Shown: piece after piece, positions 20,869-32,264 of the stretch
Layout: each line of letters begins with the position of its first letter
Position numbering within the stretch: the stretch's first letter is position 1
Assembly: GCA_027858855.1 (NCBI GenBank)
Contig: JAQIBV010000049.1
Location: 1 to 64,000, forward strand
Source: Spirochaetota bacterium
GTDB taxonomy: Bacteria > Spirochaetota > UBA4802 > JAFGJZ01
Reading direction: 5' to 3'
Length of the DNA: 64,000 nt
The notes under the pieces: generated by a model
Database searches by the model: none
Told to the model about the DNA's origin: nothing
What the model saw: the letters and a program-made list of their open reading frames with translations, nothing else
Translations under genes and position numbers: made by a program

Positions 20869-22833
20869 ATGAACAAAATGAAACCAGTAATTGAACTTAA
20901 AACTGACAACTGTGTCAACTGTCACGCCTGTATTGCGGCATGTCCGGTTAAATATTGCAACGACGCCAGCCTGGACTATATGCAAATCAATCATGATATG
21001 TGTATTGGTTGCGGTAGCTGTATTACAGCATGTTCTCATGAAGCGAGGGGAATTATCGACGATTTCGATCTTTTTTTAGAAAACCGCAATAAACATAAAT
21101 TCTTCGCGATTGTCGCTCCAGCTGTTGCTGCAAACTTCCCTAAGCAATACCTGAACCTTAACGGCTTTTTACGTTCTCTGGGTGTCGAGGCCTTCTTTGA
21201 TGTTAGTTTTGGAGCCGAACTCACTGTCAAATCATACATCGAAGCAATAAAAGACAAAAATCCGAAAACTGTCATCTCGCAACCCTGCCCAGCAATTGTA
21301 TCCTACATCGAAATACATAAGCCACAGCTGCTGCAATATCTGGCTACGGCCGACAGCCCGATGCTTCATACCATAAAAATGGTTAAAGAATTTTACCCAA
21401 AATACAAGAAACATAGCGTTATAGTTGTTTCGCCCTGTCTTGCCAAACGTCGTGAATTTGACTCTACAGGTTACGGTGACTCTGTTTACAATGTGACCTA
21501 TCAATCACTCAACAACTATCTTGAAGAAAATAAAATAGAACTAAAGCAGTTTCCAAAGGTTAACTTTACAAATCCGCCTGCCGAACGAGCAGTGCTGTTT
21601 TCAACTCCCGGTGGGCTATTTAAAACCGCTATCCGTGATCTTCCCGAAATCGAAGAGAAAACCAGAAAAATTGAGGGAGCAAAAAATATCTATCACTATC
21701 TTGATAACCTGAAAGAGTCAATAAACAGTGGTGTTGCTCCTCTTCTGATAGATTGTCTTAATTGCGAAATGGGTTGCAACGGTGGACCAGGCACTCTTAA
21801 TTGTGATAAAACGGTTGATGAAATCGAACATCACATCTCAGAGCGAAACAGAGAAATGAAAAAGCATTACAGTAACCCATCCCTGAAAAAAACATCAAAG
21901 AAGATTAACAAGCTATTAAGCAAATTCTGGAAAAAGGGACTTTATGATCGCAGCTACTCTGATCGCTCGGCTTTGAACACAATCGAAACACCTTCTGAAA
22001 AACAAATAGATAAAATTTATGAATCCATGAAAAAGTTTTCTACAGCTGAAATCATCAACTGTAACTCATGTGGTTACGGAAGCTGCTACTCAATGGCGAT
22101 TGCAATTCATAATGGCCTGAATTCACCGGAAAATTGCCACTACTACCGCCAGAAACTTCTGGCCGAAGAGCACTATAGGACCGAATCAGAACATCAGAAT
22201 GCCCTTGAGGCAAACCGGCAAACTGAACTGAACAAAACTGCACTTGAAAAAGAGCATCAATCTAAAATGACAATCGCGCAACATGTCTCGGCGACAACAA
22301 CAGAGATGGAATCAAACAATCACTCCATTGCAAAAATGACCGAATCACTCTCTTCTCTTTCAAGAGAACAGGAGAAGAGCCTGAAAGGCCTGTTTAAAAC
22401 TCTTGCCGAAGCCGGTAAGATTACATCAGAATTCAAATCGATTGCCGAAGCAATTACTGATGTTGCCGAACAGACCGACATGCTTGCATTAAATGCGAGT
22501 ATTGAGGCCGCCCGTGCCGGTGAAGTCGGCCGTGGTTTTGCCGTAGTGTCAGATGAGGTAAAAACGCTTGCCGAAAACACGCAGCACGAGATTAAAAAAA
22601 TTGGTTCATTTACCGACAACCTGCAGAAGGTTTTTAACAGAATAAATGAATCATCTCATGATGTCTTTAACAACTTCGAAAGGATGTCCCAGCTTACAAC
22701 AGAAGTAACCGCGGCAACTGAAGAGATGGCCGCGGCAACAACGTCGGTTAATGCTGAGATTGCCAAACTTGCGTCATCTGAAGAAAATTCTGATCAGAAC
22801 GAAACAAGCAAAACAGACAAAAAACTAGCGTGA
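20869..22833 (+). CDS. [FeFe]-hydrogenase-like sensor fused to a chemoreceptor signalling domain
   Basis: 654 residues, no membrane segment. Order: two ferredoxin-type 4Fe-4S motifs (C15, C18, C21, C25; C45, C48, C51, C55), a hydrogenase large-subunit domain with candidate H-cluster cysteines C140 (SQPCPA), C190 ([10 protein letters not shown]), C299 and C303 (CEMGCNGG), a further 4Fe-4S domain of PF04060 type (C398, C401, C406, C423), a coiled coil, and a methyl-accepting signalling domain (about 470-640) whose hairpin tip reads [18 protein letters not shown]. The variant L1 motif and PF04060 domain match putative sensory group C enzymes rather than catalytic group A. It probably senses H2 or redox state and signals to CheA/CheW. 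No hydE, hydF or hydG is in the window. Confidence 0.9.
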
Positions 22834-24051
22834 GACCATAAAATCACGAACTACCTTTCCCTCCGCAATGACCGCGCGGGGAAACGCCCCTAAATGGAAT
22901 GGATCCTGGTCCCACACAATTATGCTGGCCAGTTTTCCTGCTTCAACTGTACCGAGATCCTTTTCCAGCCCTAAAATCTTTGCGCTCCTTGAGGTTATCA
23001 GACTGATTGCCTCTGCGGGCTGCATACCCTGTATCAAAAAATACTTCAAGGAGTCCCGCAAACTATGAGTGAGAACCACAGGATGATCAGTCATCAGTGC
23101 ATACTCTGCCTTTGATCTCATCAACAGCGCCGGATTCTGATAATAAGCATGCTTGAGCTCCACCTTGTAATCAAACGAGCCGAGCGGACCATATACTATG
23201 GGAATATTTTTCTGTGCAATAATGTCAAATATCTCCTGATTAAAAACATCACATGCATGTTCAATTGTAATCTTCAGTTCATACTTCTCTGCAAGTTCCA
23301 GCAGATAGAGAATATCATCCTCTTTATGAACATGAACTTTGCATATCTTTTTACCGTCAAGAATCTCCAGAAGTGCCTTCTCGGTCGGACTGAATTCCAG
23401 CTCATGTTCCAGATGCACTATTTCAATCCGTTCCAGACGAGTCTCATTATCAATTTTATCATCGTTAAAGCGCTCTTCAATATCACTTAACGAATCCTCC
23501 AGAGAGCAACGCTCCTTTTCACGTTTCTGCAAAACATCATCAAAGGTCGTCTCAAGGTGTGCATAGACTCCCATGCGGGTTGTCGGGCGCGTACCTTTCC
23601 AGTTTCCCGTTGAGCGCGGATTAAACCCCAGCGCCATCTTATAACCATAATGCTTAATAAGCGCCTCACCTCGGGTACGTGCAAAGTTCTTGATAATCAT
23701 GGCCTTACCGCCAAGCAGGTTACCGCTACCGGGAACAACACAGCTATAAAGAACTCCAAAGTCTACTGCATCAGCAAAAGCCCGGTCATCGAAATAGATG
23801 CTGTTTAAAGGGTTGTTAAGCGGAGTAATCTGGTCGATCTCATCATTAGTTTCGCCCTCTTCTCCCGGCTCCCCCTGTCGTTCCATCCCTATATGCGAGT
23901 GCGGGTCTATGAAGGCAGGCGTTACCACGCCCTCAAAATCGACTTCACAGGGCTCTGAACTTACTGAAACAATACGATCATTTTCAATTGTAATAAAACT
24001 ATTTTCTGAAGAGGTTAATCCATCGTACAAAAGAGTTGCTTTAATTTTCAT
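22825..24051 (-). CDS. Amidohydrolase family protein (imidazolonepropionase-like)
   Basis: 408 residues from the ATG at 24051; GTG codons four and three codons further out are less likely. A TIM-barrel metal-dependent hydrolase: metal ligands are seen in [20 protein letters not shown] and TDHPV, and the C-terminal A-x-x-L-G-L-E-x-x-L-G-T-V-E-x-G-K-x-A-x-I-I-V-W-D segment is diagnostic of this amidohydrolase group (COG1228). Substrate unknown. Its 3' end overlaps the hydrogenase-chemoreceptor gene by nine bases on the opposite strand. Confidence 0.88.
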
Positions 24052-24275
24052 CCAATACACCACATTTTTTAGTTAGAAGATTATGATTGTTACTATCCAA
24101 TAACAAATAATAGTGTTACCCCGAAAAGCAACAATTTTTTGCTTGTCTACTAATGTAAGGTTAAACTATAAATAACAAAAGACATTCTTAAAGATAACCC
24201 ATGAACGCTGTTTGCTAATTTTCTGCATCTGGGGTTTTAGCAAAACCGCACAGCATACCTTTTCGGAGGCCTTAT

Positions 24276-28801: not shown

Positions 28802-29644
28802 ATGAACTGTTCAGAAAAAACCGTAGAGATGTGTTCGATTGTAAATATACACTCTGGCAACTGCCCGGAAAACTGCAGCTTTTGCACCCAATCGTCACAT
28901 AACAGCTGTAAAATAGAAACCTATGAATCAATTGATATCACAGAATTGATTCGACATGCAAAAGCATTAGAATCCAAAGGTGTATCCCATTTATCATTAG
29001 TGGCCAGTGGTCGCGCCCCATCTGAAAAGATTCTGCAAAACGTTAAGCAGATAACAGAACAACTTTTAAAAGAGACAAAACTGAAAATTTGCTGTTCACT
29101 GGGACTACTAACACGAGAAACCGCACTTTTTCTGAAATCAATTGGGATAAGCCGCTACCACCATAATCTCGAGAGCAGTCCGGGCTTTTTTAGTTCTATA
29201 TGCACTACTCACAACTTTACTGAACGGCTAGAAACTCTGGATTATGCTGCTGAAGCCAGCCTTGAAATATGCTCAGGTGGTATATTCAACCTGGGTGAAA
29301 CAGAAGATGATCGAATAGAGATGATCGAAATAGCAGTAAAAAAAGGTGCAACCTCTGTACCTTTTAATGTTCTTTCACCAGTAGAGGGGACACCTCTATA
29401 CGGCAGACCCACAATGAATGAAAAAGGTCTATTACACACAATCGAGCGTATTTCACAAAAATTTCCGAATGTTGTTATAAGGTTCGCAGGCGGACGCACT
29501 CAATATAGGCACTCCCTACTTGTTGACTCATTCAATCGTGGTGTTCGAGGCTTCATGATAGGCAACTATTTAACTACTAACGGCTTCACTATCGATGATG
29601 ATATCGAATTAATTGGACGATACGGTTATACCATTATACCTTAA
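28802..29644 (+). CDS. bioB: Biotin synthase, short form with an altered auxiliary-cluster site
   Basis: 280 residues against the usual 315-350; the N-terminal helix region is missing, and the frame is closed by TAA 45 bases upstream, so no longer start exists. Radical SAM enzyme that inserts sulfur into dethiobiotin. The SAM-cluster motif is C21-x3-C25-x2-C28. Other BioB marks are YHHNLESSPGFF (119-130), ICSGG (156-160) and the R-x4-R segment at 227-232. Aligned to E. coli BioB, the C128 and C188 auxiliary-cluster ligands correspond to C97/C98 and C157, but the C97 ligand is replaced (Ser65 region, HLSLVASG). Extra cysteines lie at 3, 11, 36 and 134. No bioA, bioD or bioF is near. Confidence 0.85.
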   Translation: MNCSEKTVEMCSIVNIHSGNCPENCSFCTQSSHNSCKIETYESIDITELIRHAKALESKGVSHLSLVASGRAPSEKILQNVKQITEQLLKETKLKICCSLGLLTRETALFLKSIGISRYHHNLESSPGFFSSICTTHNFTERLETLDYAAEASLEICSGGIFNLGETEDDRIEMIEIAVKKGATSVPFNVLSPVEGTPLYGRPTMNEKGLLHTIERISQKFPNVVIRFAGGRTQYRHSLLVDSFNRGVRGFMIGNYLTTNGFTIDDDIELIGRYGYTIIP

Positions 29645-29692
29645 AATGAAGATAATCTGATAGCCAGCTGTTTAGAATAAAAAGTACTCTAT

Positions 29693-29794
29693 TCTTCAAA
29701 AACCGAACTTTTGAAACCACGCCCGCTTATGATCCTCTCGAATACGATGGGGAATTTAATAATTGAGCGTCTTTTAAAATGTGGTTTTTGAAGA
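29693..29794. repeat. About 100-bp element with 12-bp terminal inverted repeats
   Basis: TCTTCAAAAACC at 29693-29704 and GGTTTTTGAAGA at 29783-29794 are perfect inverted repeats separated by 78 bases, in the gap before the acyl-activating gene. Size and architecture resemble a MITE or a small mRNA leader structure. No transposase is present. Confidence 0.55.
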
Positions 29795-29822
29795 GAACTA
29801 CTATTCACCAATTGAGGTTAAT

Positions 29823-32264
29823 ATGTTTATTAAAAACTATGACAAAGTAGCTATGATAGAAAACGGAGAGGAGATCTCATATTCGGATCTTTTAAGGGCT
29901 GTTGACAACTACTCCAGCTATTACAAAAAAATTAAGCCGGGTGCTCGTATTGCAATTGTTGCAGAGAACCGTTCTGAGTGGTTTTACGCCTTTTTAGCAT
30001 GCTGGAGAATACAGGCAACACCTGTACCAATCGATGCACTTTCTACCGAAGAGGAGATAGCATATATCCTTCAGGACTGCAAACCCGAATACATTGTCTT
30101 TACCGAAACGACCAAAGATATCTGCCGTAAGTCTCTAAAAAAAGTAAAGAAAAAGATAAAACCCATTAATATCGACACCATTCGTTTTAATCCCGACAAA
30201 TATGATCCCGAACCACTTCCTGAACTGAATGCCAATGACACAGCAGTAATTATCTATACTTCAGGGACAACCGGAAACCCGAAAGGAGTCATGCTCAGCT
30301 ATGACAACATCATGGCAAACATAGAATCTGTAAGCTGCAAAGAGTCACTCTTTTACACCGCCGAAACCAGAATAATTGTACTCTTACCACTTCACCACTC
30401 GTTTCCGCTGATGGGTTGCTTTCTGGCTCCCCTTCATGTTGGCGGCACCTGCATATTCTGCCCATCATTAACCGGTGAAGACATTATGGCAACCCTTCAA
30501 AATTATGGCATAACACTCTTTCTGGGCGTTCCACGGCTTTATGACATGATTATTAAAGCAATTCGAAACAAGATAAACGCAAGCGGAGCATCAAAGGCTG
30601 TTTTTAAAATCGCAGGCTTAATCGGCTCTAAAAAACTATCAAGAGTTGTTTTCAAATCAGTTCAGAATAAATTCGGAGGACATATAGAAGGGCTTATTTC
30701 CGGAGGAGCCGCTCTGGATTATCATACTGCCCGTGACTTCTCGACTCTGGGTTTTGATGTTATGGAGGGCTATGGAATGACCGAAACCGCCCCAATGATA
30801 TCGTGTCCACGACCGGGAAAAGTTAAAGTCGGTAACGTCGGTTTGCCAATAACAAACACTGAAGTTAAAATTATCGAAAATGAGGTCTGTTGTCGCGGTC
30901 GCAATGTTATGAAAGGCTATTATAACCGCCCCGAAGAGACAACTCAGGTTATCCGTGATGGCTGGTTACACACAGGAGACAAAGGGTTTTTTGATCGCAA
31001 AGGATACCTGCACATTAACGGACGCATAAAAGAGATTATTATTCTCTCTAACGGGAAGAACGTTAATCCTGTCGAAATTGAACAAAAGCTGGAAAAGAAT
31101 AGTGACATTATTAAAGAAGCTGCCGTCATAGATGACAGTGATTTGTTGACAGCCGTAATAAACCCAGACAGCGAGTTTCTACAAAAACAGGGCATCCTGA
31201 ATATTGAAGAATATATCAAACAGGAAGTTATCGACCCTTATAACAGGTCAGCATCACCCTACAAGCGGATAAAAAAGATTATTTTGACATCTACAGATTT
31301 TCCGCGAACACGCCTTGGCAAAATACAACGCTTCAAACTTGAACGAACCACGGCTCCTGTTAAAGCCAGCAAAGAGAAGAGCAAATCATCTACGAAAGAG
31401 TCTACAATATTGATGGATTATATTCTGCGCGAAACAGGAAGAAAAGTAAAAGTTACCGATCATATAGAGATTGATGTAGGGCTGGACTCACTCGACAAGT
31501 TATCACTACTGACATTTATTCAGGCTCACTTCAACATGGACGCAAACGAAGAGTTGCTCTCAAAATATCCAACCATTCAGGCAATTGCGGACTACATCAG
31601 TAAAAATCGAGGCAGTGGAGTTGTCGAAGTTGAATCTTCAGATCCCGGCGAGCTTCCCAAAAGTCGCTTTCCGCATATTACTCTGCGCAACCTGATGTGT
31701 TTGCCCCTGCGCATGCTTTCCAGAATCACAATTACCGGTCAGGAAAACATTCCGGTTGCACCCTACATAATGTGCGCGAACCATCAAAGCGCGTTTGACT
31801 GGCTCTTTATAGCTCACTCCATGCACAAGTCCATTTTACGTAAAAGCTATATTTTTGCTAAAACCAAACACTTTAAGAGCCGGTTACGGAAAGGTCTGGC
31901 AGCACGTTCCAATATTATTCTGCTGGATATAAATAAAGATCTGAATACTTCAATCGAACAGATGCAAAATGTTCTGCAAAAGGGAAGCAATCTTGTTCTG
32001 TTTCCGGAGGGTACGCGCAGCAAAGACGGATCGCTTCTTGAGTTCAAAAAAACATTCGCACTGCTCGCTAAAGAAATAAATGTACCGGTTCTGCCAATTG
32101 CTATCGACGGCGCACGTCATGTATTACCTAAATCGGCTCTGTTCATCAGACCATTTAAAAAAGTGGGCATTCACTATCTTCCACCGGTTTATCCATCAGG
32201 CAAAACCGTCGAAGAGATTGTCGCGCTTACTCAATCGAGTATTGATGACTCACTGAAAAAGTAG
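29823..32264 (+). CDS. Acyl-activating enzyme / acyl carrier / acyltransferase fusion
   Basis: 813 residues from ATG 29823 (GAGG five bases upstream); a longer frame from 29781 starts inside an inverted repeat and is rejected. Three domains: an AMP-forming acyl-CoA or acyl-ACP synthetase (about 1-500) with YTSGTTGNPKGVML (145-158) and GYGMTETAP; an acyl carrier domain with a phosphopantetheine serine in GLDSLDKL (about 553); a PlsC-type acyltransferase with NHQSAFD (about 652) and FPEGTRS (about 726). Logic: activate a free fatty acid, load it on the attached carrier, and transfer it to a lysolipid. This resembles E. coli Aas, but with an internal carrier domain and reversed order. Confidence 0.9.
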   Translation: MFIKNYDKVAMIENGEEISYSDLLRAVDNYSSYYKKIKPGARIAIVAENRSEWFYAFLACWRIQATPVPIDALSTEEEIAYILQDCKPEYIVFTETTKDICRKSLKKVKKKIKPINIDTIRFNPDKYDPEPLPELNANDTAVIIYTSGTTGNPKGVMLSYDNIMANIESVSCKESLFYTAETRIIVLLPLHHSFPLMGCFLAPLHVGGTCIFCPSLTGEDIMATLQNYGITLFLGVPRLYDMIIKAIRNKINASGASKAVFKIAGLIGSKKLSRVVFKSVQNKFGGHIEGLISGGAALDYHTARDFSTLGFDVMEGYGMTETAPMISCPRPGKVKVGNVGLPITNTEVKIIENEVCCRGRNVMKGYYNRPEETTQVIRDGWLHTGDKGFFDRKGYLHINGRIKEIIILSNGKNVNPVEIEQKLEKNSDIIKEAAVIDDSDLLTAVINPDSEFLQKQGILNIEEYIKQEVIDPYNRSASPYKRIKKIILTSTDFPRTRLGKIQRFKLERTTAPVKASKEKSKSSTKESTILMDYILRETGRKVKVTDHIEIDVGLDSLDKLSLLTFIQAHFNMDANEELLSKYPTIQAIADYISKNRGSGVVEVESSDPGELPKSRFPHITLRNLMCLPLRMLSRITITGQENIPVAPYIMCANHQSAFDWLFIAHSMHKSILRKSYIFAKTKHFKSRLRKGLAARSNIILLDINKDLNTSIEQMQNVLQKGSNLVLFPEGTRSKDGSLLEFKKTFALLAKEINVPVLPIAIDGARHVLPKSALFIRPFKKVGIHYLPPVYPSGKTVEEIVALTQSSIDDSLKK

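Follow-up and report, generated by a model that had tools for sequence, protein, structure and literature searches.

An [FeFe]-hydrogenase-like soluble chemoreceptor of a Spirochaetota bacterium, a putative sensor of H2 or redox state

Introduction

[FeFe]-hydrogenases joined to methyl-accepting chemotaxis proteins (MCPs) were given a class of their own in 2016, when HydDB defined [FeFe] group C2 as 'Chemotactic (putative)' (PMC5037454). The definition was repeated in a 2022 survey of acetogens (PMC9431212). Orientation in H2 gradients by sensory hydrogenases was proposed for termite-gut bacteria (Warnecke 2007, as cited in a Fibrobacteres paper, PMC4704652), and taxis toward H2 was reported for the methanogen Methanococcus maripaludis (Brileya 2013, as cited in PMC4266047). 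In the literature searched, experiments on an MCP-linked [FeFe]-hydrogenase were absent, as was any report of a bacterial H2 receptor. H2 gradients control syntrophy, acetogenesis and the ecology of the gut.

The gene described here lies in a window of 64,000 nucleotides, the whole stretch of DNA that was analysed (GCA_027858855.1, contig JAQIBV010000049.1). Its product resembles HydDB group C2, with which it was compared by description: an H-domain outside groups A and B is combined with a methyl-accepting domain, as in a putative H2 sensor. With TmHydS of Thermotoga maritima (group C, PAS-linked) it shares ferredoxin sites, replacement of the CpI residues C299, M353 and M497, and a C-terminal four-cysteine cluster; the replacements are Ala, Gly and Ser next to a PAS domain in TmHydS, but Pro, Ser and Leu next to an MCP hairpin in the window protein. 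TamHydS of Thermoanaerobacter mathranii (group D, M2e) has the same Cx2Cx4Cx16C cluster, Met353 to Ser and Met497 to Leu, but no output domain. The histidine-kinase-linked sensory enzymes (group C1-like, e.g. loci L024 and L029) have the same front end of Fer4, H-domain and PF04060, whereas their output is HisKA plus HATPase, their L1 motif reads TTCPA or SDCPA instead of QPCPA, and they form a separate clade. Aer-type cytosolic redox receptors likewise feed cofactor-based redox sensing into a chemoreceptor hairpin, but through an FAD-PAS sensor and HAMP, in place of which the window protein has iron-sulphur clusters and an H-cluster site, without PAS or HAMP.

The window receptor is real and well conserved, and the MCP-linked kind is already known, widespread and was proposed in 2016. 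Added here are strict ligand conservation, a heptad ladder in the hairpin, linkage to che genes and a direct junction between C423 and the receptor helix.

Gene and domain features

The open reading frame and the Pfam matches agree with the initial annotation that one chain of 654 residues joins ferredoxin clusters, a hydrogenase domain, a PF04060 cluster domain and a methyl-accepting domain (Table 1). All Pfam matches are above the gathering cut-offs: Fe_hyd_lg_C 77-307 (4e-33), MCPsignal 493-641 (2e-26), Fer4 twice, and FeS PF04060 396-424 (1e-5). An RDD protein gene is located upstream. Downstream, a convergent amidohydrolase-like gene (22825-24063, minus strand) overlaps the last 9 bases of the receptor gene. 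The neighbourhood of this copy is uninformative.

Table 1. Coordinates of the receptor gene and its features in the window
Feature	Position	Strand	Basis
[FeFe]-hydrogenase-like chemoreceptor gene, 654 aa, ATG start	20869..22833	+	ORF translation, Pfam, homologues of equal architecture
Two ferredoxin-type [4Fe-4S] sites (C15, C18, C21, C25; C45, C48, C51, C55)	20911..21033	+	Two Fer4 matches; 8/8 Cys invariant, n=85
H-domain, residues 77-307, PF02906	21097..21789	+	Pfam E 4e-33; Foldseek top 50
L1 motif SQPCPA; ligand C140 kept, proton-relay Cys replaced by P139	21277..21294	+	Translation, alignment
L2 motif SPCLAKRRE; ligand C190, K193 and E196 kept, Met replaced by S188	21430..21456	+	Translation, alignment
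L3 motif DCLNCEMGC; ligands C299 and C303 kept, Met replaced by L297	21751..21777	+	Translation, alignment
C-terminal [4Fe-4S] domain, Cx2Cx4Cx16C (C398, C401, C406, C423), PF04060	22060..22137	+	Pfam; 4/4 Cys invariant, n=85
Receptor helix 1, residues 424-549, begins directly after C423	22138..22515	+	AlphaFold model
Kinase-control tip, 34 residues, turn at about residue 550	22462..22563	+	Pfam, homologues, AlphaFold model, alignment
Receptor helix 2, residues 551-640; methylation-like motif at 614-623	22519..22788	+	AlphaFold model, alignment

An AlphaFold model was built from 85 sequences. Its mean pLDDT is 89, with values above 90 in nearly all blocks of the hydrogenase part. In the PDB, every one of the model's top 50 Foldseek matches is an [FeFe]-hydrogenase entry; a CO2 reductase contributes one of these, its hydrogenase subunit. 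The receptor part is modelled as two long helices, 424-549 and 551-653, with the turn at residue 550; no membrane segment is present, in agreement with the initial reading of a soluble receptor. In the model C423, the last ligand of the C-terminal cluster domain, sits one residue ahead of the receptor helix.

Relatives and conservation

At least 559 relatives were found in a scan of GTDB genomes. The best 80 of these belong to Spirochaetota, Bacillota, Bacteroidota, Acidobacteriota, Thermodesulfobacteriota, Planctomycetota, Ignavibacteriota, Fibrobacterota, Auribacterota and candidate groups. Named carriers that are not MAGs are Desulfoluna limicola, Labilibacter marinus, Plebeiobacterium sediminum and Clostridium sp. 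ZS2-4. Since the family is spread across many phyla and occurs in such strains, the 'putative' label of 2016 is directly testable.

The architecture recurs in the homologues compared: among 71 scanned relatives the H-domain is found in all, PF04060 in 64 and MCPsignal (PF00015) in 70. The sole relative without MCPsignal is probably L149, in which the frame stops ahead of the tip. A chance fusion or an assembly artefact is ruled out by the identical architecture in many unrelated genomes. Matches on virus contigs were limited to ferredoxin-like stretches of 40 residues.

To assess conservation, 85 proteins from about nine named phyla were aligned. None of the 16 cluster cysteines varies among them; these include the H-cluster ligands C140, C190, C299 and C303, that is, the four cysteine ligands of [4Fe-4S]H, one of them bridging to [2Fe]H. 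Ligand loss, which was to count against a sensory role, is ruled out for these sequences. K193, E196 and S163-P164 are retained in 84-85 of the 85, and so, at nearly the same level, are the replacing residues P139 (83/85), S188 (82/85) and L297 (84/85). The L1 motif that had been singled out as a variant is indeed present, but it is not odd, as [SA]QPCPA is near-universal within the MCP-linked family.

Sensor-type hydrogenase domain

The window protein was aligned with the two catalytic-type HydA proteins of its own genome and two others, and positions are given in CpI numbering. The CpI C299 position is occupied by Pro and the S319 position by Ala, and a deletion removes the segment with E279 and E282. 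Judged from the sequence, the missing proton-relay residues fit a slow, sensor-type enzyme. Among sensory sequences about 10% have Pro at the CpI C299 position and about 32% have Ser at M353 (PMC10055695), and TamHydS, in which Met353 is Ser, Met497 is Leu and the Cx2Cx4Cx16C motif is present, becomes active once matured (PMC8163306). The second-shell replacements in the window protein are therefore not exotic.

A tree of 43 proteins, in which bootstrap values are not fully settled, unites the MCP-linked proteins in a single clade (100/100). The other clades are the histidine-kinase-linked (96/92) and PAS-like (99/98) proteins, group A (100/100) and group B (100/99), the labels A and B being our own, from motifs and model matches, and not from HydDB. 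Membership in catalytic group A is ruled out: the window protein falls outside that clade, lacks the CpI set C299/E279/E282/S319/M353/M497 and scores far below the cut-offs of the NCBIfam group A models. This bears out the initial annotation, in which the H-domain was read as sensory and placement in group A was named as the outcome that would overturn it. By its domains and the tree, the protein combines a sensory-type H-domain with a methyl-accepting chemotaxis protein as in HydDB group C2, which is known here by description. Placement in group D (M2e, TamHydS-like) does not fit, since the cluster and the Ser are present, yet an MCP output is fused.

Receptor hairpin

Coordinated heptad changes in both arms define chemoreceptor length classes. 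In the 85 aligned proteins the length from C423 to the tip and the length past the tip co-vary (Spearman 0.80, uncorrected for relatedness, so that its p-value is not literal). The C423-to-tip length equals 1 modulo 7 in 54 of them, e.g. 85, 99, 113, 127, 141, 155 and 169 residues. Because of this coordinated ladder the hairpin was judged to be of genuine chemoreceptor type. As in methyl-accepting chemoreceptors, it is an antiparallel helical hairpin with symmetric heptad indels and a conserved kinase-control tip, where N542, G551 and F557 are found in 84/85, E563 in 82/85 and E546 in 80/85. The strict methylation consensus occurs in only 33 of the 85; the window protein has only one methylation-like motif.

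CheA (PF02895) is present in 48 of 50 carrier genomes. At locus L087 a full CheA gene starts 28 bases past the homologue and is followed by a dCache receptor. The fetched flanks of other homologues hold CheA-type proteins (L145, L089), CheW with CheR (L088, L096) or CheR (L107). Conserved neighbours across the homologue loci are weak, and a neighbour cluster of 19 loci apparently consists largely of two-component proteins linked in a chain.

Maturases and Che genes in the carrier genomes

HydE, HydF and HydG genes are absent among the neighbours of the window gene, as had been noted. In its own genome HydG and HydF are found on contig C50, with an aspartase-like gene between them, and HydE on contig C44. 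Two catalytic-type HydA genes are present, one in a HydABC-type operon (C16) and the second on C39. CheW domains occur at seven places, including three CheA-sized frames (about 707, 756 and 1168 aa), and there are at least 15 other MCPs. The genes that the initial annotation proposed to look for elsewhere in the genome were thus found, and the parts for an H-cluster and for a chemotaxis output exist in this cell. At L154:6482-10541 (G000:C50) the gene between hydG and hydF is aspartate ammonia-lyase-like; the order hydG, aspartate ammonia-lyase-like gene, hydF is likewise described for Pelobacter carbinolicus (PMC3543383).

HydG is commoner among relatives with the receptor gene (8/11) than among those without it (9/48; Fisher p 0.001, uncorrected for relatedness). 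Among 77 carrier genomes HydG is above the cut-off in 52 and missing in 25, and the absences are grouped by clade. Most of the HydG-lacking carriers tested are also without HydE and HydF. Real loss may lie behind the absences, but so may divergent maturases or gaps in binning. Most carriers are MAGs, so part of the absence is incompleteness; the clade pattern suggests a cause beyond this. Group-A HydA with complete motifs is present in the HydEFG-poor carriers inspected. The absences weaken the maturase argument without singling out the receptor.

Carriers without HydG above the cut-off include G098, G124 and G126 (L126, L134, L137), G083 and G132 (L101, L151), G080 and G112 (L098, L114), G069 and G070 (L084, L085), and G107 (L148). 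In these, HydE above the cut-off and HydF were missing wherever tested. Complete-motif group-A HydA was confirmed in G098, G083, G080, G069, G070 and G107.

Proposed function and alternatives

We slightly favour a cytosolic chemoreceptor in which a low-turnover [FeFe]-hydrogenase serves as ligand module and controls CheA, giving H2 or redox taxis. The H-cluster would be made by the HydE, HydF and HydG of the cell. H2, or an H2-coupled redox poise reaching it through the ferredoxin clusters, would alter its state. The change would pass to the C-terminal [4Fe-4S] domain and, through the junction at C423, to the coiled-coil hairpin, which would relay it to the tip, the site of CheA and CheW. The resulting CheA activity would bias swimming; whether toward or away from the stimulus cannot be assigned. 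The C-terminal cluster of TamHydS is not reduced by H2 (PMC13104023), so that signalling by the redox state of this cluster is doubtful; a conformational route through the domain is possible. The narrower reading, a true bacterial H2 chemoreceptor without PAS, HAMP or membrane step, where Fe-S chemistry acts directly on the coiled coil, is put forward tentatively, at somewhat less than an even chance. Steering by H2 or redox state through a chemotaxis output, as initially suggested, gains from the sensor-type H-domain, the intact hairpin and the CheA genes of the carriers, but the novelty implied there does not stand beside HydDB group C2 (PMC5037454) and the termite-gut proposal (PMC4704652). 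The family offers a soluble, HAMP-free system in which to see an Fe-S protein drive a chemoreceptor.

The protein might instead be a redox- or energy-taxis receptor that reads the redox poise of ferredoxin or of the cytosol through its clusters, H2 not being the physiological ligand and the site perhaps holding no more of the H-cluster than its [4Fe-4S] part, as in an Fe-S analogue of Aer. We regard this as unlikely, though a serious candidate. The eight ferredoxin and four C-terminal cluster cysteines vary no more than the H-cluster ligands do, and recognisable HydG is absent from about one third of the carrier genomes, in whole clades; the HydEFG-poor genomes inspected keep a complete group-A HydA, however, so that maturase absence says little about the receptor. 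The changes at CpI C299, M353 and M497 are of the turnover-lowering kind, and CpI M497L is without a properly integrated [2Fe] subcluster (PMC10055695), but TamHydS is active with the same Ser and Leu (PMC8163306), and the four invariant H-cluster ligands, with K193 and E196, indicate that the site has been selected for.

That the hairpin drives a non-swimming chemosensory array, e.g. for gene regulation or biofilm, appears improbable: the three CheA-sized frames of the own genome need not all control a flagellum and PocR-type histidine kinases adjoin some carrier loci, but flagellar genes do occur (L154 holds one for a FlgG-like rod protein) and nearly all carriers have CheA. It is very improbable that another small molecule that binds the H-cluster, such as CO or formaldehyde, is the ligand and H2 incidental. 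H-clusters do bind CO, and CpI structures with CO or formaldehyde inhibition exist (8aln and 8pvm among the Foldseek matches), yet the sensory enzymes studied show reduced CO sensitivity (PMC8163306) and sensing of CO or C1 compounds is not suggested by anything in the gene context. It is scarcely credible that the protein is a catalytic hydrogenase whose receptor tail is accidental; its H-domain ligands would be intact as observed, but the protein lies outside group A with full support and without the proton relay, and the tail is conserved across phyla with its coordinated ladder.

Variant copies and other loci

A spirochaete MAG (G046) carries two divergent paralogues, L046:2384-4186 and L047:3639-5468. 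In the former the L2 motif is degraded (GSCIGN, with K193 replaced by N) and the four ligands are retained; from its sequence it may mark a stage on the way to a sensor that lacks a [2Fe] site. The homologue L022 (G007:C51:10280-11582) is broken by internal stops or a frameshift and is probably a pseudogene or an assembly error. Elsewhere in the window, positions 28802-32264 encode, to judge from the translation, a radical SAM protein of BioB-like type (CxxxCxxC) and, after it, an 827-aa AMP-ligase/carrier/acyltransferase fusion, genes possibly concerned with a lipid or a small molecule. The paralogues L014 and L042 of genome G002 (648 and 603 aa) have hairpin arms of unequal length, a difference that might fit them to receptor arrays that are not equally high.
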